Part shown: positions 27,314 to 38,159 of the stretch, one piece after another | How the letters are laid out: the number at the start of each line of letters is the position of its first letter | How positions within the stretch are numbered: position 1 is the stretch's first letter | Source of the DNA: Haliea sp. E1-2-M8 | GTDB lineage: Bacteria > Pseudomonadota > Gammaproteobacteria > Pseudomonadales > Halieaceae | Assembly (NCBI RefSeq): GCF_030649675.1 | Contig: NZ_JAUTDR010000005.1 | Coordinates: 62,001 to 126,000, forward strand | DNA: 64,000 bases | Direction: 5' to 3' | Position numbers and translations under genes: made by a program | The notes under the pieces: model-generated | The model's database searches: none | The model's input: the letters and a program-made list of their open reading frames with translations, nothing else | Told to the model about the DNA's origin: nothing

Positions 27314-28327
27314 ATGTACACCACCTGCAACAGTCACCGTTTCTGCATTGCCCCCATGATGGACTGGAGTGACCGCCACTGCCGTTACCTGTGGCGCCTG
27401 CTGAGCCGGCATGCGCGCCTGTACACCGAGATGGTAACCACCGGCGCACTGATCCACGGCGATCGCGCACGGTTTCTGCGCTTCGACCCGGTGGAACAGC
27501 CGGTGGCCCTGCAGCTGGGCGGCAGTGACCCCGCGGACCTGGCCCGCTGCGCGCGCTGGGCCGAGGACTGGGGCTATGACGAGGTCAACCTCAACTGCGG
27601 CTGCCCCTCGGACCGGGTGCAGTCCGGGGCCTTCGGCGCCTCCCTGATGGCGCACCCACAGCGGGTGGCGGAATGTGTTGCAGCAATGCGCGACGCCTGC
27701 GCCCTGCCGGTGACGGTCAAACACCGTATCGGCATTGACGACATGGAGTCCTATCAGCAGCTGCTGGACTTTGTTGGGCCCAGCGCCGAAGCGGGCTGCT
27801 CGGTGTTTATCGTCCACGCGCGCAAGGCCTGGTTGCAGGGGCTGTCGCCAAAGGAGAACCGGGAAATCCCGCCCCTCAACTATCCCTGGGTATACCGGCT
27901 GAAAGCGGACCTGCCCCAGCTCACCATTGTCCTCAACGGCGGCATCGCTACGCTTGCAGAATGCCGCACGCATCTGGCGCAGGTGGACGGGGTCATGCTG
28001 GGGCGGGTAGCCTATCATGACCCGTGGCTGCTGGCGGATGTGGACCGGGCCCTGTTCGGCGCGGAAAATCCGCTACAATCCCGGCATGCGGTAATTGAGC
28101 AGATGCTGCCCTACGTGGCCCGGGAACTGGCCGCGGGCGCCCAACTCAACCACATCACCCGGCACCTGCTGGGGCTGTACCAGGGCCTGCCCGGAGCGCG
28201 CCAGTTCCGCAGACATATCAGTGAAAACGCCCACCGCAAGGGCGCGGGCATTGAGGTACTGGAGCAGGCTTGCCGCCTGGTGCGCGCTGCCGGCGAGCGG
28301 CAGCAGGCCCCCGACTCCGTCGCCTGA
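27314..28327 (+). CDS. dusA: tRNA-dihydrouridine(20/20a) synthase
   Basis: The 337-residue FMN enzyme reduces uridine 20 and 20a in the tRNA D-loop. It begins [20 protein letters not shown], with later [32 protein letters not shown] containing the catalytic Cys, [30 protein letters not shown] and LNGGI, all typical of DusA rather than DusB or DusC. A TACAAT -10-like element (27280-27285) lies before it. It is close upstream of the transaldolase gene. Confidence 0.96.
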
Positions 28328-28344
28328 TACAGGAAAGGACCACT

Positions 28345-29298
28345 ATGACCAGTAAACTCGAACAACTTAAAGGCATGACCGATGTGGTGGCCGATACCGG
28401 TGACATCGAGGCCATCCGCCGCTTTCAGCCCCAGGACGCCACTACCAACCCCTCGCTGCTGCTGAAGGCCGCCGCCCTGCCCCACTACGGCGAGCTGCTG
28501 GCCCAGGCCCGCAGCTGGGCCGCCCTGCAGGGCGGCTCCAATGCGGAGCGGCTGGCCAACTGCTGCGACCGGTTCGCGGTCGATGTCGGCTGCGAGATCC
28601 TGGACATTGTACCCGGGCGTATTTCCACGGAAGTTGACGCGCGGCTGTCCTTCGACACCGAAGCCACCATTGCCCGGGCACAACGGCTGATCGACCTGTA
28701 CGAAAAAGCCGGTGTCTCGCGGGAGCGGATCCTGATCAAGGTCGCCTCCACCTGGGAAGGTATCCGCGCCGGTGAGCAGCTGGAAAAGGAGGGCATCAAC
28801 TGCAACCTGACCCTGCTGTTCGGCTTCGCCCAGGCCGCCGCCTGTGCCGATGCGGGCGTCTACCTGATCTCGCCGTTTGTCGGCCGCATCCTGGACTGGC
28901 ACCTGGCCAACAGCGGCCTGGTGGTCAAGCAGCCGACCGACGATCCCGGTGTGCAGTCCGTGCGGCGCATCTACCGGTACTACAAAACCCACGGCTACAA
29001 CACCGTGGTGATGGGCGCCAGCTTCCGCAACACCGGCGAGATCGAGGCGCTGGCCGGTTGCGACCGCCTGACCATCAGCCCCACGCTGCTGGAGAGCCTG
29101 GCGGGGGATGAGGGAGACCTGCCGCGCCAGCTTGCGCCGGACGACACCGGTTCGGAGGATGCCCGCGAGGCGCCCAGCGAACCCACCTTCCGCCTGGCCC
29201 TGAATGACGATGCCATGGCGACGGAAAAACTGGCTGAAGGTATCCGCAACTTCATCGCCGACCAGATAAAGCTGGAACAGGTGATTGTCCAATCATGA
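28345..29298 (+). CDS. tal: Transaldolase
   Basis: The 317-residue protein is the same length as E. coli TalB. It moves a dihydroxyacetone unit between sedoheptulose-7-phosphate and glyceraldehyde-3-phosphate in the pentose phosphate pathway. Diagnostic parts are [25 protein letters not shown]-like [11 protein letters not shown], the Schiff-base Lys in [14 protein letters not shown], and [20 protein letters not shown]. An AGGA/AAAGGA site precedes the ATG at 28345. It overlaps the next gene by four bases. Confidence 0.97.
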
Positions 29299-29738
29299 TC
29301 AATGCCCTGAAATCACTGTTCGTCCTGCCCGCAGGCGACAGCCCCGAAGAACACTCGCACCGGGTGCACCTGGCTTCCGCAGCCCTGTTGATCGAGACAG
29401 CGCGGGCCGATTTCACCCAGGATGCAGATGAGGAAGCGGCGCTGGAGAATCTGCTCTGTGAATCACTGTCGCTGTCGCGGGAGGAGGTTCATGCACTGGT
29501 CGAGCGGGCTTCGAATCGGGTGGACTCGGCCACCTCGCTGTATGAATTTACCCGGGTCATCAACGACCAGTACGGCCCCGCCGAGAAGCTGGAGCTCATC
29601 GCGGCCATGTGGCGGGTGGCCTACGTCGACGACAACCTGGACAAGTACGAGGAACATTTGATCCGCCAGGTCGCGGAACTGATCTACGTGCCCCACCAGG
29701 ACTATATTCGCAGCAAGCTGGAAGCCAAACCCGACTGA
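29295..29738 (+). CDS. TerB-like (tellurite resistance family) protein
   Basis: The 147-residue, mostly helical acidic protein carries the TerB/DjlA-type pattern: [15 protein letters not shown] near the N-terminus, and [27 protein letters not shown] near residues 95-120, where D-x-x-L-D-x-x-E is the typical metal-binding-like motif. Proteins of this family are small helical bundles often of unknown role, sometimes linked to tellurite or membrane stress. It starts in an ATGA overlap with the transaldolase gene. Confidence 0.85.
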
Positions 29739-29773: not shown

Positions 29774-30256
29774 TCAGCTGCGCTCCAGCACCACCATCAG
29801 GTCCTTGAACCGGGCGCGGTTCTCCTCCGACAGGCCCATGAGAACCCGATGGGCGTCCAGGACCTGTTCCTTGACCGCCTGTTCGCTGCCCTCGACCAGA
29901 GGCACGCGGCGGATACAGCCGGGCTTGGCACAGGCGTCCTCGTGCAATTCGAACAGACGCTGAAAACCCATACTCTTGATCAGACGGGTGATCCCGGGGT
30001 TGTTGCTGTAGATCGCGGGCATGAAGCCGTAGCGTGCCCGCACCTCCAGCGCCAGCTTGGCCAGCAGTCCCAGAGTGGTGCTGTCTATGCCCTCGGCACC
30101 GCAGAGATCGACCCAGACACTGGCAAAATCCGGATTCTCGAGCATCTTGTGCACATAGTCGTCGATCGTGGTACACAGGGTCAGACGCACATCGCCAGTC
30201 AGGCGAATGACATAGGCGCCGTCCTGGCTCGCTGCAAGTATTCGGCCCTCTTTCAT
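29774..30256 (-). CDS. STAS-domain anti-anti-sigma factor (HsbA-like)
   Basis: The true start is the ATG at 30256, directly after the phosphatase gene, giving 160 residues. Residues ~5-105 form a STAS domain with WVDLCGAEGIDSTTLGLLAK; Ser59 is the likely site of reversible phosphorylation. A further ~50 residues follow that are not found in minimal SpoIIAA. Length and motif match the HsbA protein of Pseudomonas, which switches between an anti-sigma factor and a diguanylate cyclase. It is the natural substrate of the adjacent PP2C phosphatase. The kinase is not in the window. Confidence 0.85.
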   Translation of the reverse strand: MKEGRILAASQDGAYVIRLTGDVRLTLCTTIDDYVHKMLENPDFASVWVDLCGAEGIDSTTLGLLAKLALEVRARYGFMPAIYSNNPGITRLIKSMGFQRLFELHEDACAKPGCIRRVPLVEGSEQAVKEQVLDAHRVLMGLSEENRARFKDLMVVLERS

Positions 30257-30257
30257 C

Positions 30258-31442
30258 CTAACCCCGCTTGCTGATGAACAGCGCAGCAATATCGTCGGGA
30301 GCGGTTTCGACACGGTCGAGTCCCAGCCGGGTGACAATCTCCTCTGGCGACTCGGCAGACTCCTCAAACACTTTCAGGAAGTACTTTTCCTTCTCTATCA
30401 GGTTCTGCGGCGGCAGGATCTCCAGGATCCCGTCGGAAAACAGCGCCAGCATGAAACGCTGGGGCAGGTCGATCAGGTGCTCTTCGTAGGCCACATCCTC
30501 CATGATGCCCACCGCGGAGCCTTCGCCGCGCAAATAGCGCGCGCCCTCTCCCGACACCAGCACGGGCTGCGGCAAATGCCCCGCAACACTGTAGCGCAGG
30601 GTGTTGGCGGCGGTATCCAGCAAGCCAACCACCATGGTGGCAAACTTGCCCACACCCAGGCCCAGCAATTCCTTGTTGGCACGCTTGAGCATGGCCACAG
30701 GGCTCAGGATGGTGTCGTCGCTGCGCCGCAGGTAATCCGACCGCTTGCGGGCAAAGAGGTTCTTCAACAGTACCGTGGCAAAAGCGGAGGAACTGCCGTG
30801 GCCGGACACATCGGCCATGAAAAAGGTCACGTGGTGTTTGCCGACGATGAAGTAGTCAGTGAAATCACCGCTCAGATAGAGCGAGGGAATCACCGTGTGA
30901 CTGAAGACATAGTCGCCCCGGATCATGGGGCTTGCGGGCAACATTCGCAGCTGGACCTGGCGCCCCGCCTGCTGGTCCTGCTCCAGCATCTTGACGGTGC
31001 CGCGCAGTTCGATATTCGCCACCTCCAGGCGTTTGCGGGATTCCTGCAACTCGCGACGCAGCTGGCGCTGGCGCACGCAGCGCTCGATGGACTTGAGCAG
31101 GGCTTCGGTATCCTCGATCGGGCGCACAAAAAAGTCGCTGGCGCCAAGACGCAGGGCCGTCATCATCTTGCCCACTTCGGCGCGATCGCTGAATATGATC
31201 GCCGGTATCTGCAGGTCGAGCTCGCGCAGGGAACGACGCGCCTCCGCCCAGGACACATCCTCCAGATCCAGCTCGCAGAGAATGACATCGAGATCCTGGT
31301 TGCCGTCGAGAAAATGATAGGCCGCAATGACGTCGGTATAGACTTCAGTGCGGTACCCGGCCGCCGCGACAGTCTCCGCCAGCGCTGCTGCACGAGCGGG
31401 ATCGTCGTCGATCACCAGCACATAGCCTTTGGAATCCATCAT
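30258..31442 (-). CDS. Receiver-PP2C (SpoIIE-type) phosphatase, HsbR-like, with degenerate receiver
   Basis: The 394-residue protein has an N-terminal receiver domain (residues ~5-125), a short coiled coil (~125-160) and a SpoIIE-like PP2C phosphatase (~185-390) with MADVSGHGSSSAFAT and ALFSDGILEIL metal motifs. In the receiver the acidic pocket DDD (12-14) is kept. The position of the phospho-acceptor Asp is Glu57 (VILCELDL), and the conserved Lys is Arg107 (FFVRP). HsbR of Pseudomonas has a similar layout but an additional kinase-like domain, absent here. It should dephosphorylate the STAS protein encoded next (2-base gap). Confidence 0.88.
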   Translation of the reverse strand: MMDSKGYVLVIDDDPARAAALAETVAAAGYRTEVYTDVIAAYHFLDGNQDLDVILCELDLEDVSWAEARRSLRELDLQIPAIIFSDRAEVGKMMTALRLGASDFFVRPIEDTEALLKSIERCVRQRQLRRELQESRKRLEVANIELRGTVKMLEQDQQAGRQVQLRMLPASPMIRGDYVFSHTVIPSLYLSGDFTDYFIVGKHHVTFFMADVSGHGSSSAFATVLLKNLFARKRSDYLRRSDDTILSPVAMLKRANKELLGLGVGKFATMVVGLLDTAANTLRYSVAGHLPQPVLVSGEGARYLRGEGSAVGIMEDVAYEEHLIDLPQRFMLALFSDGILEILPPQNLIEKEKYFLKVFEESAESPEEIVTRLGLDRVETAPDDIAALFISKRG

Positions 31443-31566: not shown

Positions 31567-32286
31567 TCAAAATTCCTCGTCCCACTCGGCGTCGTTAAAG
31601 TCGGAGAAATCGTCAGCCACCACGCCGTCGCTTACCTGGGACCGGCGCTGTTGCAGGTAGGCATCGCGGACAAAAATGTAGCGGTCACCGGAGATCAGGT
31701 CTTCCACCCGCAGCAGTCGGGCGCGGCTGTCGACCAGGTCAAGCGTGCGCAGGGAATTGCGCAGGCTCATATCGTCGATGCTGCCTTCGACTGACGTCAG
31801 GGCATCAAAGACAGAACCGGTGCCGCTGCGTACAGTCCGGGGCCCAAACAGGGGCACCATCACGTAGGGCCCGGAGGGCAGCCCCCAGATCGCCAGGGTG
31901 TGGCCGAAGTCCGTGCGGTAGGGCTCTACGCCCATGCGGCTGGCAACATCAAACAGACCCAGCATGCCGATAGTCGAATTCAGCAGGAAGCGGCCGCCGG
32001 CCCGGGCGACGCCGCCCGGGCGCCCCTGCAGCACCGCGTTGATGGTGGAGTTCGCATCCCGCAGGTTTCTGAAAAAATTGCCGACACCCTTTTCCGCAGG
32101 ATCGGGCATAACCGCCTGATAACCCTTCGCTGTAGGTTTCAGCAGATACTGGTCCAGGCGTTCATTGAACTCGAATATGGGCCGGTTGAGGCCCTCCCAG
32201 GGGTCGGGATTGACCGTCTCCTGGGCCATCGCGGGCGCAAATAACAGCAGGCAGAGGAGACCCAATGTCGGTCGCAGCAGTTTCAT
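31567..32286 (-). CDS. mlaA: MlaA (VacJ) family outer-membrane lipid asymmetry protein
   Basis: The ATG at 32286 gives 239 residues. MlaA removes phospholipids from the outer leaflet of the outer membrane and hands them to MlaC. The family core is visible: DPWEGLNRPIFEFNERLDQYLLKP, FFRNLRDANSTINAVLQG, GGRFLLNSTIGMLGLFDVAS, FGHTLAIWGLPSGPYVMVPLFGP. The signal peptide ends AMAQE and has no lipobox cysteine, unlike the E. coli lipoprotein. A polar acidic tail of about 20 residues follows the domain. It lies 90 bases after hvfC on the same strand. Confidence 0.93.
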   Translation of the reverse strand: MKLLRPTLGLLCLLLFAPAMAQETVNPDPWEGLNRPIFEFNERLDQYLLKPTAKGYQAVMPDPAEKGVGNFFRNLRDANSTINAVLQGRPGGVARAGGRFLLNSTIGMLGLFDVASRMGVEPYRTDFGHTLAIWGLPSGPYVMVPLFGPRTVRSGTGSVFDALTSVEGSIDDMSLRNSLRTLDLVDSRARLLRVEDLISGDRYIFVRDAYLQQRRSQVSDGVVADDFSDFNDAEWDEEF

Positions 32287-32376: not shown

Positions 32377-33114
32377 TCAGTTCAGCACTATGACAGCTCG
32401 GCTGGCAAAGTCCGCCAGCTGCGCTCCGCCGAAGCCGAGAACCGCTTCCCGATCCATACCCAGCTCCGCCGCCAGCTGCTGCAACAGGTCCGCGCCGGTG
32501 CCGGTCTCGTTGTCACGGGCGAGTTCCAGCAGGCGGGCGCTCGCCGCATTCAGCGCCATGAAGCGGACCACGTCCTCGCGGTCGCGGTAGACCACCAGGT
32601 ACACCGGTTCGCCCGGTTCCGGGGGCCGGAAGTCGGCACCGATCCGGTGTACCGGAAAGCGGTAGGCCAGTACCCAGGCCAACGGCGACAGCCGCACTAC
32701 CACCCGCAGCGGGTCGCCCTCCTCAGACCCTGGCGGCAGGTCCCCGTCCGCGACCGACAACGCCAATTCCACCCACTCGTAGTGAGCCAGCTCGGCAATG
32801 AACGGCGGATCTTCCGGCCCGGGCTGGTGGCGCTCGAGCAAAAAGCGCAAAAACTCCTGGCTGATCTCAAGAAAATACGGGGTACGGCAGCGATGACCGT
32901 CGATGAACTGCCGCACCAGGATGTGCCAGTCCCGGTCGCTGTACAGGCTGCGCAGCACCGGGAACCCATTGCTGATAAACCCCTCGATATTGTTGTAAAT
33001 GAGGTCCTGGTAGATCTTCAGGCGGCGCGGCTCGATACCCGCCGGCGGAGGTACGGACCCGGGGTTGCGCAGGTAGCCCGCCAGCGCCAACTGGCTGCCG
33101 CGCAACTCAGCCAT
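32377..33114 (-). CDS. hvfC: HvfC/DUF2063 partner protein of the MNIO enzyme
   Basis: The ATG at 33114 overlaps the end of hvfB by eight bases and gives 245 residues. The N-terminal half (MAELRGSQLALAGYLRNPG, then RLKIYQDLIYNNIEGFISNGFPVLRSLY) is the DUF2063 domain, once called a putative DNA-binding domain. The C-terminal half holds the hydrophobic HvfC-type extension (LAHYEWVELALSVAD, VYLVVYRDREDVVRFMALNA). In the Haemophilus system HvfC works with HvfB to modify cysteines of HvfA. It binds and presents the precursor rather than being the catalyst. Confidence 0.9.
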   Translation of the reverse strand: MAELRGSQLALAGYLRNPGSVPPPAGIEPRRLKIYQDLIYNNIEGFISNGFPVLRSLYSDRDWHILVRQFIDGHRCRTPYFLEISQEFLRFLLERHQPGPEDPPFIAELAHYEWVELALSVADGDLPPGSEEGDPLRVVVRLSPLAWVLAYRFPVHRIGADFRPPEPGEPVYLVVYRDREDVVRFMALNAASARLLELARDNETGTGADLLQQLAAELGMDREAVLGFGGAQLADFASRAVIVLN

Positions 33115-33964
33115 GTGCCAGTTCCGCCACAGAGTCGGCGCCGTAGGCGGCTTGCAACTGCCGGATCTGCGCCACTTCCTGCAGCAGCTCCGCCAGCGGC
33201 GGCAGGTTGAAGTCACGCTCCAGCAGGGTTGGTACCGGCCCCAGTAGACTGTAGGCCTCCGCCAGCAGGTTCCACACCGGGTCTATGACGTTGGCGCCGT
33301 GAGTGTCTACCTTGAGGTCCGGCGCTTCGTCGTAGTGGCCGGCCACGTGAATATAGCGGACCCGCTCCAGGGGCAGCGCGCGCAGGAAGGCAGACGCCTC
33401 GTAGCCGTGGTTGATACTGTTGACGTAAATGTTGTTCACATCCAGCAGCAGATCGCAGCCTGAGGCCTCAACCACCGCATTGATGAAATCCGCCTCACTC
33501 ATGTCGGCGTGGGCCTGGGCGTAGTAGGAGGCATTTTCCAGCGCGAGCGGCGCACCGATGATGTCCTGTACCTGCTGCACGCGGTCTGCGACATGGCGCA
33601 CTGCCTCCTCGGTAAAGGGTATCGGCAGCAGATCATAGAGATGCCCTTCTGCGGCGCACCAGGACAGGTGTTCGCTGTACAGGCTGACTCCCAGCTCATC
33701 CATCAATGCGCGCACGGCGTGCAGCAAATCCTTGTCCAGCGGGTCGGGGCCGCCGATATCCAGCGACAATCCATGAAAGACCAAGGGGCAGCGCTCCACC
33801 AGCTCGCGGAACTGGCGGCCATAGCGGCCGCCGACGTGAATCCAGTTCTCCGGCGCCACCTCCAGAAAATCGACCGCTCCCCGGTCCGCTGAAAGCAACG
33901 GGCCCATCAGGGCCCGCCGCAATCCCAGACCCGCTCCTGCGGGCCCGCTGTTACTTTCCGGCAT
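33107..33964 (-). CDS. hvfB: HvfB/DUF692 multinuclear non-heme iron oxidase (MNIO)
   Basis: The 285-residue protein starts at an ATG that shares one base with the hvfA stop (TGATG). It is a TIM barrel of the DUF692 family, with metal-ligand segments FHGLSLDIGG, YSEHLSWC, LALENASYY, LLDVNNIYVNSINHG, YIHVAGHYDE, DTHGANVIDPVW and LLERDFNLP, all present and intact. MNIO enzymes use two or three iron atoms and O2 to turn cysteine residues of a peptide into oxazolone/thioamide groups. The direct substrate here should be the EGKCG repeats of HvfA. Confidence 0.94.
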   Translation of the reverse strand: MPESNSGPAGAGLGLRRALMGPLLSADRGAVDFLEVAPENWIHVGGRYGRQFRELVERCPLVFHGLSLDIGGPDPLDKDLLHAVRALMDELGVSLYSEHLSWCAAEGHLYDLLPIPFTEEAVRHVADRVQQVQDIIGAPLALENASYYAQAHADMSEADFINAVVEASGCDLLLDVNNIYVNSINHGYEASAFLRALPLERVRYIHVAGHYDEAPDLKVDTHGANVIDPVWNLLAEAYSLLGPVPTLLERDFNLPPLAELLQEVAQIRQLQAAYGADSVAELAHG

Positions 33965-34263
33965 CAGGCGCCGCCGCACTTCCCTTCTCCGCACTTGCCT
34001 TCGCCGTCCTTGCCTTCTCCATCTTTCTCACCACACTTGCCTTCACCACACTTGCCTTCGCCTTCCTTCTCGCCGCACTTGCCCTCACCGCACTTGCCTT
34101 CATGGTCGCCTTCACCGTGAGAACCGTAGTTGGCCAGGTTGTAGCCGGTATTGAGCTGCTCCGCTGCAAAGGGGTTGGCTTCCGCGGCTGCCATGGGTAC
34201 GACGGAGCTAGCCAGGAAAGCTGCACCAAGAGCCAGCGCGAGGGGTTTTTTTGACTGTGCCAT
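33964..34263 (-). CDS. hvfA: HvfA-type RiPP precursor (bufferin/oxazolin-like) with six EGKCG motifs
   Basis: The 99-residue precursor begins with a Sec signal peptide (residues 1-27, ending MAAA). A spacer of about 25 residues (NPFAAEQLNTGYNLANYGSH) comes next, then a C-terminal core from residue 54. The core holds six EGKCG pentapeptides, arranged as three pairs, with cysteines at 58, 63, 72, 77, 91 and 96. A seventh copy is EGKDG (Asp86). No other cysteine exists. In characterised systems the EGKCG cysteine is converted to an oxazolone/thioamide that binds copper. AAGGA lies nine bases before the ATG. It is first in the hvfABC operon, and the presence of a signal peptide implies export after modification. 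Confidence 0.92.
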   Translation of the reverse strand: MAQSKKPLALALGAAFLASSVVPMAAAEANPFAAEQLNTGYNLANYGSHGEGDHEGKCGEGKCGEKEGEGKCGEGKCGEKDGEGKDGEGKCGEGKCGGA

Positions 34264-34354
34264 GAGCGATATCCTTGTTGTTGGGTGGACGTATTCAAAC
34301 ACTTGTTCCCGGCCGGCGGAAAACGCCAACCGACAGTGCTGTGACTCAGCGTTG

Positions 34355-34372
34355 GCGGGGAAGTTTCCCCGC
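34355..34372. promoter_or_regulatory. Perfect palindrome upstream of hvfA
   Basis: The 140-base gap between hrpA and hvfA contains GCGGGGAAGTTTCCCCGC, two perfect 8-base arms around GT, 92 bases before the hvfA ATG. There is no T-run, so it is a weak terminator candidate. It could be an operator for the hvf operon. No clear sigma-70 promoter is seen in the gap. Confidence 0.45.
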
Positions 34373-34403: not shown

Positions 34404-37400
34404 TCAGGCAGCCGAGCCACCGCCCGGATGGGCATCCAGCCAGGCTTGCACCGACTCCCACTGCTCCTGCAGCCGCTTGTCCGAGACCGGCACCCGGGTG
34501 CCGAGCTGCTGGGCGAACAGCGACACCCGAAACTCCTCCAGCATCCAGCGATATTGCTGTGCGGAGACACACAACGCCAGCAGTCCCGGCCGCCGCAGGC
34601 AGGCCTCCTGCAGGGGAAGCGCAAGGCGTTGCAGCATTTCGCGCTGGCTGGTGTCGCGGGGCAGTTGCCCGTTGAGTCGCTCCAGGCGCTGCTTCAGGGC
34701 CTTCATGTAGCGAGGATACTGGGGCAGCCAGTCCGCCGGAGTATCGCGCTGGAACCCGGGTTGCCACAGCTGCGCCAGTTGCTGGCGCATGTCCGCGAGC
34801 GCCGGGGCCCAGGACGCATCGCTGTAGCGAGCCAGCAGGGGCTGCAGCTCCGCCAGCGGTTTCAGGGCGTTCAGCAGGTTGGTTTCCAGCTCCGTCGCCC
34901 GCGCTACCACCTCGCCACTGCGTGCCAGCAGTGCCTTGAACCCGGTCTCGTCCCGCGGCAAGGCATCGTTGAGGCCCGCAACCTGGACCCAGGCCGCATC
35001 AATCAGATCGTCGACCAGCGGCACCCGCTCCTGCCCTGCCGCCGCCAGCAACAGGCTGGTCTCGTTGCCGAGCAGCAGCTGCTTGCGCAGAAACCTGACC
35101 TGCTGCTTCTGTTGCAGCCGCAGCAGCCGGAGCACCCCGAGCCGGTGCTGCAGCAGGGCCTGCCCAGGGTAGTCGCACAACTCCACCGCCACCGATTCAC
35201 CCTTGTCCACCAGCGCCGGCCAGGCCACGATCTCGGTGCCCGCCTGACGGAAGCGCCACTCCCTGGGCAGCGCGTCGATAGCCCAACTGGTGAGACCTTC
35301 ACGGGCGGGACTGCTCGCCGTGGCCGAGGTGATCGTCTGCCGGGTATCGCTGCGGAACTCGGTGACCAGCGCCGCCAGGTCCCGCCCCTGATTCAGCAGC
35401 TTGCCGTCGGCGTCAACCACGCGGATATTCATGTGGTAGAAGGGATCGAGTTTTTCGGGCTGCAGGTCGCGCGCCGCGACCGGCACGCTGCCGAGTCGGG
35501 ACAGTACCCGGGCCAGCGCCACGCAGAGATCCTCGTCCGCGGGCTCGAGTACCGCGAGGGCGCGATCCACGGTGTCGGGCACCGGTACCAGCTGCTTGCG
35601 CTTGTCCTTGGGCAGTCCTTTTACCAGGGCGATACACTTGTCCCGCAGCAAGCCTGGTACCAGCCAGTCAAAGCGAAACCGCGGCACCCGGTTCAGTAAC
35701 CCCACCGGCACCGTCACCGAGACCCCATCTGCCACCTGACCGGGTTCGAACTGGTAACTCAGGCGGAATTCCATGTCGCCCCAGCACAGCCGGTCCGGGA
35801 ACTGCTGGCCCAGGGCGGAGCCCGGGTCCCGGGCCAGCAGCAACTCGCGGGGTACCCGCAGGCTGGCATCCGCGCCTTCCGTCGCCGCCACCCAGGCGCG
35901 CAGCCGATCGGCGGTGGTGATGTCCGCCGGCAGCCGTTCGTCATAAAAGCTGAACAGAACCTGTTCGTCCGCCAGCAGGTCCCGCCGCCGGGCCCTGGCC
36001 TCGAGGTCTTCCAGGGTACGCAGCAGCTTCAGATTGTGCTTGAGAAATCCGGGGTGACGCGGAAAGCGGCCCGCAATCAGGCCCTCGCGGATCAGCAGCT
36101 CCCGGGATTCTACCGGGTTGATCGGGCCGTAGTGCACCGGGCGCTTGTCGGCCACGGTCAGCCCGTACAGCGTGACCCGCTCCGAGGCCATGGCTCGCCC
36201 CTGGCGTGCCTCCCAGCGCGGCTCGTAATAGTGAAACTTCAGCAGCTCGGGATTGGTCTCCAGCACCCAGGCGGGGTCGATGGTGCCTACCGTGCGCGCA
36301 AACACCTTCGAGGTTTCCACAATTTCAGCCGCCACCAGCCACTTCGGCCGCTGCCGCCCCAGGGCAGAGCCCGGGAAAATCTGCAGCTTGCGATTGCGAC
36401 TGCCCAGGTACTCGCGATCCTCCTGGTGCTGGGCAATATTCGACAGCAGTCCCGCCAGCAGTGCCTTGTGCACCGCGTCGTAGCTCTCCTCCTCCACCGC
36501 GGGCAGCCCGGCCGCGGGGTGCAGACCTAGCTGGCGGCAGCTGATCCGCAGCTGGGCGTGCATGTCGCGCCACTCGCGCAGGCGCAGGAAGGATAGGAAT
36601 TCGCGCTGGCAGAGCTTGCGCAGCTGGCTCTGGCTAAGGGCCTGGCGCTGTTCCTCGTAGTAGCGCCACAGCGCCAGCCAGGCCATGAAGTCCGAGCGCG
36701 GGTGGCGAAAGCGCGCGTGCATCTGGTCCGCCTGGGTCTGCTTGTCCGTGGGTCGCTCGCGCGGGTCCTGGATCGCCAGCGCCGCCGCGATCACCAGTAC
36801 TTCATCCAGGCAGCCGAGCTGCTGCGCCGCCAGCACCATACGTGCCAGGCGCGGATCCACCGGCAGCCTGGCCATGCGCTTGCCGGTCGCCGTCAGTTTG
36901 CCGCGGCCGGTCACCGCCCCCAGTTCCTGCAGCAGCTTGTAGCCGTCACGCACCATGCGCGGATCCGGCGGATTGATAAAGGGGAAGCGCTGCAACTCGC
37001 CCAGACCCAGCTGCAACATCTGCAGAATGACCGCCGCGAGACTGGTACGCAGGATTTCGGGGTCAGTGAATTCCGGCCGCGAAAGGAAATCTGCCTCCGT
37101 ATACAGGCGAATGCAGACCCCGGCGGCGACGCGGCCACAGCGGCCCTGGCGCTGGTTGGCGCTGGCCTGGGAGATGGGCTCGATGGGCAGCCGCTGCACC
37201 TTGGTGCGGAAACTGTAGCGGCTGATCCGGGCTTCGCCGGGGTCAATCACATAGCGGATACCGGGCACGGTCACGGATGTCTCCGCCACATTGGTCGCCA
37301 GCACCACTCGCATACCCCGCCTGCGCTTGAGATCAAACACACGGCTTTGCTCAGCCTGGGTCAGGCGGGCATAGAGCGGCAGCACCTCCAGCCGCTCCTG

Positions 37401-38159
37401 ACCCCGCAGCTGCCGCGCCAGCTCGCGGATATCGCGCTCACCGGGCAGGAACACCAGGATATCGCCGCGCTCGCCGAAACGGCCCGCCTCTATCTCACCG
37501 ACCAGGCCCACGATCTGCTCCTGCAGGCCCAGGTCGCGGTCCTCCGCGGGGTCCAGGTAGACCGTCTCCACCGGGTAGCTGCGGCCGGAAACCTCGATGA
37601 TCGGTGCGTCGCCAAAGTGGCGGGAAAAGCTGTCGACGTCGATGGTCGCAGAGGTAATGATCAGCTTCAGGTCCGGGCGCTTCGGCAGCAGCTGTTTCAG
37701 GTAGCCCAGCAGGAAGTCGATATTGAGGCTGCGCTCGTGGGCCTCGTCAATAATCAGCGTGTCGTACCGGCGCAGCAGCCGGTCGTGGCGAATTTCCGCC
37801 AGCAGGATGCCGTCGGTCATCAGCTTGATGGCGGAGGCGTCGGACACCTGGTCGGTGAAGCGCACCTGGTAGCCCACCGTATCCCCGAGGGGCACCTGCA
37901 GCTCCTCGGAGATGCGCTGGGCAACCGTCCGCGCCGCCAGCCGCCGGGGCTGGGTGTGGCCGATGCGGGCCTCGCGGCCGCGTCCCAGCTGCAGGCAGAT
38001 CTTGGGAATCTGGGTGGTCTTGCCCGAGCCGGTTTCGCCGGCGATGATCACCACCTGATGCGCGCTGATGGCCGCCGCGATATCCTCCCGGCGCTGCACG
38101 ACGGGCAGCTCGGGGGGGAAGGTAATCGGCGGAATGGCGCGAACCACCGCTTCCGGCAT
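34404..38159 (-). CDS. hrpA: ATP-dependent RNA helicase HrpA
   Basis: The 1251-residue DEAH-box helicase is close to the ~1300 residues of E. coli HrpA. Walker A is GETGSGKTTQ (41-50), motif II is DEAHERSLNIDFL, motif III is SAT (ITSATID), and motif VI lies in QRQGRCGRVAAG. Beyond residue ~560 come the HA2, OB-fold and long HrpA-specific C-terminal domains (PVHYGPINPVESRELLIREG). It rescues stalled ribosomes and unwinds structured mRNA. The divergent MaoC gene starts 92 bases away. Confidence 0.97.
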   Translation of the reverse strand: MPEAVVRAIPPITFPPELPVVQRREDIAAAISAHQVVIIAGETGSGKTTQIPKICLQLGRGREARIGHTQPRRLAARTVAQRISEELQVPLGDTVGYQVRFTDQVSDASAIKLMTDGILLAEIRHDRLLRRYDTLIIDEAHERSLNIDFLLGYLKQLLPKRPDLKLIITSATIDVDSFSRHFGDAPIIEVSGRSYPVETVYLDPAEDRDLGLQEQIVGLVGEIEAGRFGERGDILVFLPGERDIRELARQLRGQERLEVLPLYARLTQAEQSRVFDLKRRRGMRVVLATNVAETSVTVPGIRYVIDPGEARISRYSFRTKVQRLPIEPISQASANQRQGRCGRVAAGVCIRLYTEADFLSRPEFTDPEILRTSLAAVILQMLQLGLGELQRFPFINPPDPRMVRDGYKLLQELGAVTGRGKLTATGKRMARLPVDPRLARMVLAAQQLGCLDEVLVIAAALAIQDPRERPTDKQTQADQMHARFRHPRSDFMAWLALWRYYEEQRQALSQSQLRKLCQREFLSFLRLREWRDMHAQLRISCRQLGLHPAAGLPAVEEESYDAVHKALLAGLLSNIAQHQEDREYLGSRNRKLQIFPGSALGRQRPKWLVAAEIVETSKVFARTVGTIDPAWVLETNPELLKFHYYEPRWEARQGRAMASERVTLYGLTVADKRPVHYGPINPVESRELLIREGLIAGRFPRHPGFLKHNLKLLRTLEDLEARARRRDLLADEQVLFSFYDERLPADITTADRLRAWVAATEGADASLRVPRELLLARDPGSALGQQFPDRLCWGDMEFRLSYQFEPGQVADGVSVTVPVGLLNRVPRFRFDWLVPGLLRDKCIALVKGLPKDKRKQLVPVPDTVDRALAVLEPADEDLCVALARVLSRLGSVPVAARDLQPEKLDPFYHMNIRVVDADGKLLNQGRDLAALVTEFRSDTRQTITSATASSPAREGLTSWAIDALPREWRFRQAGTEIVAWPALVDKGESVAVELCDYPGQALLQHRLGVLRLLRLQQKQQVRFLRKQLLLGNETSLLLAAAGQERVPLVDDLIDAAWVQVAGLNDALPRDETGFKALLARSGEVVARATELETNLLNALKPLAELQPLLARYSDASWAPALADMRQQLAQLWQPGFQRDTPADWLPQYPRYMKALKQRLERLNGQLPRDTSQREMLQRLALPLQEACLRRPGLLALCVSAQQYRWMLEEFRVSLFAQQLGTRVPVSDKRLQEQWESVQAWLDAHPGGGSAA

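Follow-up and report, generated by a model that had tools for sequence, protein, structure and literature searches.

We analysed a window of 64,000 nucleotides from contig NZ_JAUTDR010000005.1 of Haliea sp. E1-2-M8, in whose numbering all positions below are given, and focused on the hvfABC operon at 32377-34263. The operon encodes a precursor peptide, HvfA, an MNIO maturase, HvfB, and its partner protein, HvfC (Table 1). An earlier note had described here a 99-residue exported precursor, whose six EGKCG motifs form three pairs, followed with overlapping codons by an intact DUF692 enzyme and a DUF2063 partner. It had proposed a multi-site system for a ribosomally synthesized and post-translationally modified peptide (RiPP), serving as a high-capacity copper buffer of a marine bacterium. 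The coordinates proved exact. The genes are all encoded on the minus strand, a point on which the note was silent. The overlaps are real as well: the ATG of hvfB shares one base with the stop codon of hvfA, and hvfC and hvfB overlap by 8 bases. The open reading frame (ORF) and the motif count confirm the precursor. Its translation begins MAQSKKPLALALGAAFLASSVVPMAAAEANPF, its EGKCG motifs start at residues 55, 60, 69, 74, 88, and 93, and its cysteines are residues 58, 63, 72, 77, 91, and 96. The export signal, MAQSKKPLALALGAAFLASSVVPMAAA followed by EANPF, is clear by eye only. The back-translated EGKCG pattern (GARGGNAARTGYGG) has seven matches in the 4.84-Mb genome, six of them inside hvfA, versus a single match for the reversed control; hence, the cluster is not due to chance. 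We considered EGKDG, at HvfA residues 83 to 87, as a decayed seventh site and rejected it, since the closest relative has ERKDG in the spacer at this place, which makes a spacer more likely.

Table 1. Features of the hvfABC locus and of its neighbours, in positions of the window; the related loci are the best 80 of 574.
Feature	Position	Strand	Evidence
hvfA, precursor peptide, 99 aa, six EGKCG motifs	33964-34263	minus	ORF, KCGExKCG_twice model, dN/dS
Probable Sec signal peptide, HvfA residues 1-27	34183-34263	minus	cleavage after AAA judged by eye; similar N-termini and NPF in related precursors
HvfA core, three EGKCGEGKCG pairs	33973-34101	minus	motif count, alignment
HvfA cysteine codons	34090-34092, 34075-34077, 34048-34050, 34033-34035, 33991-33993, 33976-33978	minus	
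hvfB, MNIO (DUF692, PF05114) maturase, 285 aa	33107-33964	minus	Pfam, NCBIfam, residue mapping
hvfC, PME1 partner protein, DUF2063 and NGO1945_C (RRE-type) domains, 245 aa	32377-33114	minus	Pfam, NCBIfam
ECF-sigma-type promoter-like element GAAACTT-N15-GTCACA	34340-34367	minus	conservation among upstream regions
hrpA (presumed name), helicase-like gene, upstream, outside operon	34404-38159	minus	match upstream in 40/80 related loci
mlaA gene, downstream, outside operon	31567-32286	minus	match downstream in 42/80 related loci

The family assignment is consistent across databases. HvfB matches the Pfam family MbnB_TglH_ChrH with 350.9 bits (cut-off 25), and HvfC matches DUF2063 (82.2, cut-off 27.2) and NGO1945_C (104.6, cut-off 27); the Pfam scan gave no family for HvfA. 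In NCBIfam, HvfB reaches 428.5 bits for the HvfB family NF003818 (cut-off 360), HvfC 301.3 for the HvfC family (cut-off 142), and HvfA 40.2 for KCGExKCG_twice (cut-off 19.5). With the three proteins above these cut-offs, the earlier assignment to an hvfABC-type multi-site MNIO RiPP operon with DUF692 and DUF2063 stands. A phage origin was considered and discarded, HvfB having no PHROGs match. The maturase also appears intact, a claim for which the note had looked to the metal ligands. Its relative in the PDB, 3bww from Histophilus, aligns in two pieces to HvfB residues 10 to 274 of 285. Through this structure, N177, D220, and H222 correspond to N174, D241, and H243 of 3bww and, by a constant offset of one and not by the Haemophilus sequence itself, to N175, D242, and H244 of Haemophilus HvfB; changing any of the latter leads to loss of activity (PMC13419390). 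These residues are thus kept. As far as this check goes, which did not take the ligands at iron sites 1 and 2 singly, the lack of ligands that the note would have read as a refutation does not apply. R16-R17 and D251-F252 correspond, by motif and not by alignment, to the specificity residues Arg15-Arg16 of FonB and to its catalytic Asp249 with Phe250 (PMC13097082).

What the operon makes can be approached through its homologues, and we infer how the cysteines are modified, that the peptide is exported, and that it binds copper from named systems that have been studied experimentally. The note had expected an oxazolone/thioamide, the form in which the oxazolin of Haemophilus influenzae was originally reported. 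That structure is outdated: alkylation-assisted nuclear magnetic resonance led to its reassignment as a 5-thiooxazole, fontiphorin and gonophorin were assigned likewise, and "captophorins" was introduced as the name of the class (PMC13097082); the group that first reported oxazolin concurs (PMC13419390). In the Haliea cell, HvfA would be synthesised with an export signal and be recognised in the cytoplasm by HvfC. The iron enzyme HvfB would convert each of the six EGKCG cysteines to a 5-thiooxazole in a four-electron oxidation, and the modified HvfA would then be exported to the periplasm, where its thiols could bind Cu(I). In Haemophilus, HvfBC favours the full-length precursor, which the authors read as the signal acting as a leader (PMC13419390). 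Up to four coppers have been counted on a fontiphorin fusion with seven sites, and gonophorin bound one or two (PMC13097082). Six sites therefore need not mean six coppers, and the proposed high capacity of the buffer is doubtful. A role of copper in the living cell is itself an unproven inference.

The closest parallels are four. The Haemophilus influenzae operon shares with the present one three EGKCGEGKCG pairs (six cysteines), the MNIO, the DUF2063/RRE partner, and the activity residues. The fonABC operon of Fontimonas thermophila, which makes fontiphorin, has the same minimal three-gene layout and the Arg-Arg and Asp-Phe motifs, but seven sites instead of six. The mmrABC operon of Microbulbifer (bulbicupramide) also belongs to a marine gammaproteobacterium and consists of mmrA-C only, with five to eight EGKCG in MmrA (PMC12538549); strain VAAF005 is described with three two-cysteine cassettes, as here. 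Among the matches listed, HvfB is 62 to 67% identical to HvfB of ten Microbulbifer loci, whereas the precursors differ between the repeats, with KKK there and EKEG/EKDG spacers here. The last are bufferin 1 (Buf1, DUF2282) and Buf2 of Caulobacter, which share the MNIO, the DUF2063 partner, the probable Sec signal, and, for bufferin 1, the expected thiooxazole. Their precursors are of another family, and HvfB stays below the cut-off of the bufferin maturase model MNIO_BufB (280.5 versus 310). The locus is an intact, ordinary member of the EGKCG captophorins. We give a probability of about 0.9 to its reading as an EGKCG captophorin/oxazolin (Buf_EGKCG) operon in genes, family, and chemistry, the chemistry being that of studied homologues.

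The number of modification sites deserves a separate comment, since the earlier note had singled it out. The count was right, but six sites in three pairs are nothing exceptional. The same number of cysteines, six, is modified in Haemophilus HvfA, within three AEGKCGEGKCG motifs (PMC13419390), and the longest family member has been credited with 58 cysteines (PMC12452194). A KCG precursor was recovered in 72 of the 80 related loci, and our repeat statistics cover the 62 precursors with an NPF leader, leaving out 10 that were incomplete or without NPF; a few of the 62 have over-long starts, which may add a cysteine. The median number of cysteines is 8 (range, 2 to 18), with 9 precursors having exactly six and 46 having more; for EGKCG, the median is 7, with 13 precursors at exactly six and 33 above. 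The six sites found here are below both medians and are no distinction. Among the seven genus genomes with hvfB, two, including this one, have six EGKCG and five have eight. The closest relative has eight, owing to an extra 14-residue stretch with two cysteines; hence, the number of sites changes here by a whole pair.

The core of the precursor also drifts within the family. Locus L101 has no EGKCG and eight EGSCG/EGHCG sites instead, and the L113 precursor mixes two EGKCG with EGSCG/EGNCG. Cores that are largely or wholly EGSCG/EGNCG lie beside an MNIO of the same Pfam family in L101, L103, L113, L117, and L119. Our first script left 8 of the 80 loci without a KCG precursor; L005, L059, L068, and L080 carry EGSCG/EGNCG-type precursors, and in L039, L045, L049, and L052 no recognisable precursor was found in the 1.5 kb before the MNIO. 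In L035, the precursor contains 13 KCG and, instead of directly adjoining the MNIO match, ends about 2.4 kb upstream of it.

The hvfABC genes are under purifying selection. Relative to locus L002, whose HvfB is 85% identical, the ratio of nonsynonymous to synonymous substitution rates (dN/dS) is 0.023 for hvfA, 0.128 for hvfB, and 0.130 for hvfC. An HvfC match follows hvfB in all 80 related loci. The order hrpA-hvfABC-mlaA, in which we take the helicase-like gene to be hrpA, is common to about half of these loci (Table 1), some of whose contigs stop early. An MNIO is present in 7 of 8 genomes of the genus and in 67 of 140 of the family (54 of 78 among those at least 90% complete). The operon looks inherited and chromosomal. 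Among the matches listed, the closest named relatives are Haliea and other Halieaceae, so that the host is probably marine, as the note had supposed.

When could such an operon be expressed? Alignment of the sequence upstream of hvfA within the genus and its near relatives revealed a conserved block, GAAACTT...GTCACA. The element, GAAACT-N17-TCWNA, ends 76 bases before the hvfA start. We examined 65 upstream regions, from 64 of the 80 loci and the window, leaving out 16 loci in which the precursor was missing or partial or the upstream sequence too short; a few start codons, e.g., in L046 and L070, are doubtful and shift the distances. GAAAC-N17-GTC occurs in 30 of these regions and any other spacing from N12 to N23 in at most two. 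After clustering at about 70% identity, it occurs in 27 of 60 clusters, with at most three at the other spacings from N10 to N24 and none in antisense. In all 30 sites, the -10 (GTCNNA) ends in A. When the G is not required, GAAACT-N17-TCNNA is found in 29 of the 65 regions, with one region at each of the next two spacings, and the base preceding TC is still a G in 29 of 29. Allowing GGAACT at the same place adds three regions; in shuffles, the slightly wider pattern G[AG]AACT averages 0.135 and reaches 2 at most. The element precedes hvfA in all seven genus genomes with hvfB. It is also found in 8 of 26 regions from loci without an hrpA match, although some contigs of this list end early and hrpA may lie beyond. 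Hence, its presence follows hvfA, not hrpA alone. Between 31500 and 34500, no sigma-70 promoter was found, and the three terminator-like sites are no excess over the shuffle mean of 2.4. Word searches of open-licence papers listed no description of the element, and the word "promoter" is absent from the main texts of PMC12452194 and PMC13097082.

A regulon in the genome itself was sought and rejected: the three exact sites lie before hvfA, before a lipoprotein-like gene, and before no ORF of 70 amino acids. The second of these, GAAACTT-N15-GTCT at G000:C78:188913-188938 (L129), is 54 bases before the lipoprotein-like gene, the first 70 residues of which reached no NCBIfam cut-off; the closest relative has a sequence resembling this site at G007:C29:312-337 (L143). 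Another site, GGAACTT-N15-GTC, recurs in the genus (L130, L138, L141, L142, L145, L146, and L151) with no clear gene recognised behind it; it may be a small-RNA promoter. We also discarded a palindrome around the -35 (GCGGGGAAACTTCCCCGC), since it is imperfect in L002 and L091 and lost in the other rows of the genus.

By its pattern, the hvfA element is of the extracytoplasmic-function (ECF) sigma factor type. The genome encodes an RpoE (L156; 321.6 bits, cut-off 236.15), which was found in all 46 family genomes searched. Its rpoE is preceded by GGAACTT-N16-TCATA and its rpoH by GGAACTT-N15-TCTAA. Upstream of rpoE, checked in the 30 best of the 46 genomes, GGAACTT-N16-TCNNA is present in 23 loci; the other spacings between 13 and 21 never occur, nor does GAAACTT. 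The hvfA and rpoE elements thus have the same spacing and -10 type, and the E. coli RpoE consensus is approximately GGAACTT and TCAAA (PMC12153292). The hvfA element may be an unusual variant of the sigma-E promoter, or it may belong to a related sigma factor. We looked for autoregulation through this element and rejected it. A cruder pattern scan of nine Sigma70_r2 matches found no GRAAC-N17-GTC upstream. In five sigma genes scanned closely, the best upstream scores were 7 of 10 (rpoH, L155), 8 (rpoE, L156), 6 (L157), 7 (L159), and 6 (L160); scores of 8 or higher turn up in 60 of 500 random stretches, and the element upstream of the short sigma genes L157, L159, and L160 is not above chance.

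Control of such operons by stress sigma factors is already known in principle. In Haemophilus, RpoE2 controls the homologous doxX-hvf genes, and hypochlorite induces them (PMC7907618). In Neisseria, NMB2140-2143 is co-transcribed with rpoE, with the -35 GTAAGGTT (PMC2893595), and its tie to captophorins follows from the homology given in PMC7907618 and the gonococcal work in PMC13097082. In Sinorhizobium, RpoE7 raises the expression of a DUF692-DUF2063 operon, and the promoter listed for this operon includes TGTAAC (PMC6180224). These precedents have other -35 elements than hvfA. We tentatively suggest, at somewhat less than even odds, that the Haliea operon is transcribed from a conserved promoter of the ECF-sigma type, near the sigma-E class, so that it would respond to envelope or oxidative stress more than to copper in free form. 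By extension, an envelope-stress ECF sigma factor, be it RpoE or a close relative preferring GAAACT...GTCWNA, could have the EGKCG captophorin operon as its dedicated output in Halieaceae and further marine Gammaproteobacteria. The peptide would then be deployed when a damaged periplasm exposes thiols or Cu(I), and not when copper rises, a proposal that we regard as quite possible without its being the expected outcome.

Several observations weigh against this interpretation and should make one cautious. The hvfA element differs from that of rpoE, with GA for GG in the -35 and a G before TC that is absent in the 23 rpoE sites. In the genome itself, the exact pattern has three sites versus eight for the reversed control, i.e., no genome-wide enrichment; the element thus stands out by its conservation and position only. 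GAAAC-N17-GTC is missing from 35 of the 65 regions, including all nine of Microbulbifer and all six of Nitrosomonas that were examined. On the side of the family assignment, the operon is, unlike that of Haemophilus, without hvfX (DoxX), the two DoxX matches lying on other contigs, and HvfA misses its equivalog model NF050188 by a wide margin (39.9 versus a cut-off of 95 bits). Finally, according to PMC12538549, the MmrA-C proteins of Microbulbifer were undetected in the proteome, copper added or not, and E. coli gained slight copper protection from the Microbulbifer homologue. It is tempting to link the missing element of Microbulbifer to its missing Mmr proteins. This is a lead only, since some Microbulbifer regions have GGTCT preceded by a weaker TGAA block.

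The evidence on regulation also bears on what the peptide is for. With the same enzymes and product, the thiols of the thiooxazoles could form a periplasmic antioxidant or hypochlorite sink, with envelope or oxidative stress as the inducer, instead of a copper buffer. The ECF-type element, the RpoE2 dependence and hypochlorite induction in Haemophilus (PMC7907618), the co-transcription with rpoE in Neisseria (PMC2893595), and the unresponsiveness of mmr to copper (PMC12538549) all point in this direction, and we consider this explanation the most serious of the rivals, though an unlikely one. Acquisition of copper by a chalkophore, as with methanobactin, in place of detoxification or buffering, is improbable. 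It would fit MNIO chemistry and the binding of Cu(I), and HvfB does match the MbnB model weakly, but the score is far below the equivalog cut-off (54.8 versus 325), the genes directly flanking the operon are an hrpA-like gene and mlaA (no search of the window for uptake receptors was made), and the inducers published for such pathways are excess metal and oxidative stress (PMC13097082). That the operon is a silent remnant with a conserved sequence, as the undetected MmrA-C proteins under the conditions of PMC12538549 might suggest, is very improbable given the low dN/dS of all three genes, the retained active-site residues, and the promoter-like element kept throughout the genus genomes with hvfB.

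Some further ORFs of the window lie beyond mlaA. At 30258-31442 (minus) is one that we take to encode a response-regulator/SpoIIE-type phosphatase-like protein, with a match in 33 of the 80 related loci, and at 29774-30367 (minus) is a presumably STAS-like one. On the plus strand, the ORFs at 28270-29298 and 29295-29738, from their translations presumably transaldolase-like and TerB-like, overlap one another.

The promoter-like element moderately raises the interest of this otherwise ordinary captophorin locus, because it gives a direct test of the stimulus of the operon. An element that is conserved and exactly spaced makes the trigger directly testable, including the lack of a copper response in Microbulbifer. 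If control by envelope stress proves true, it would explain why the proteome of copper-challenged Microbulbifer lacked the captophorin proteins.
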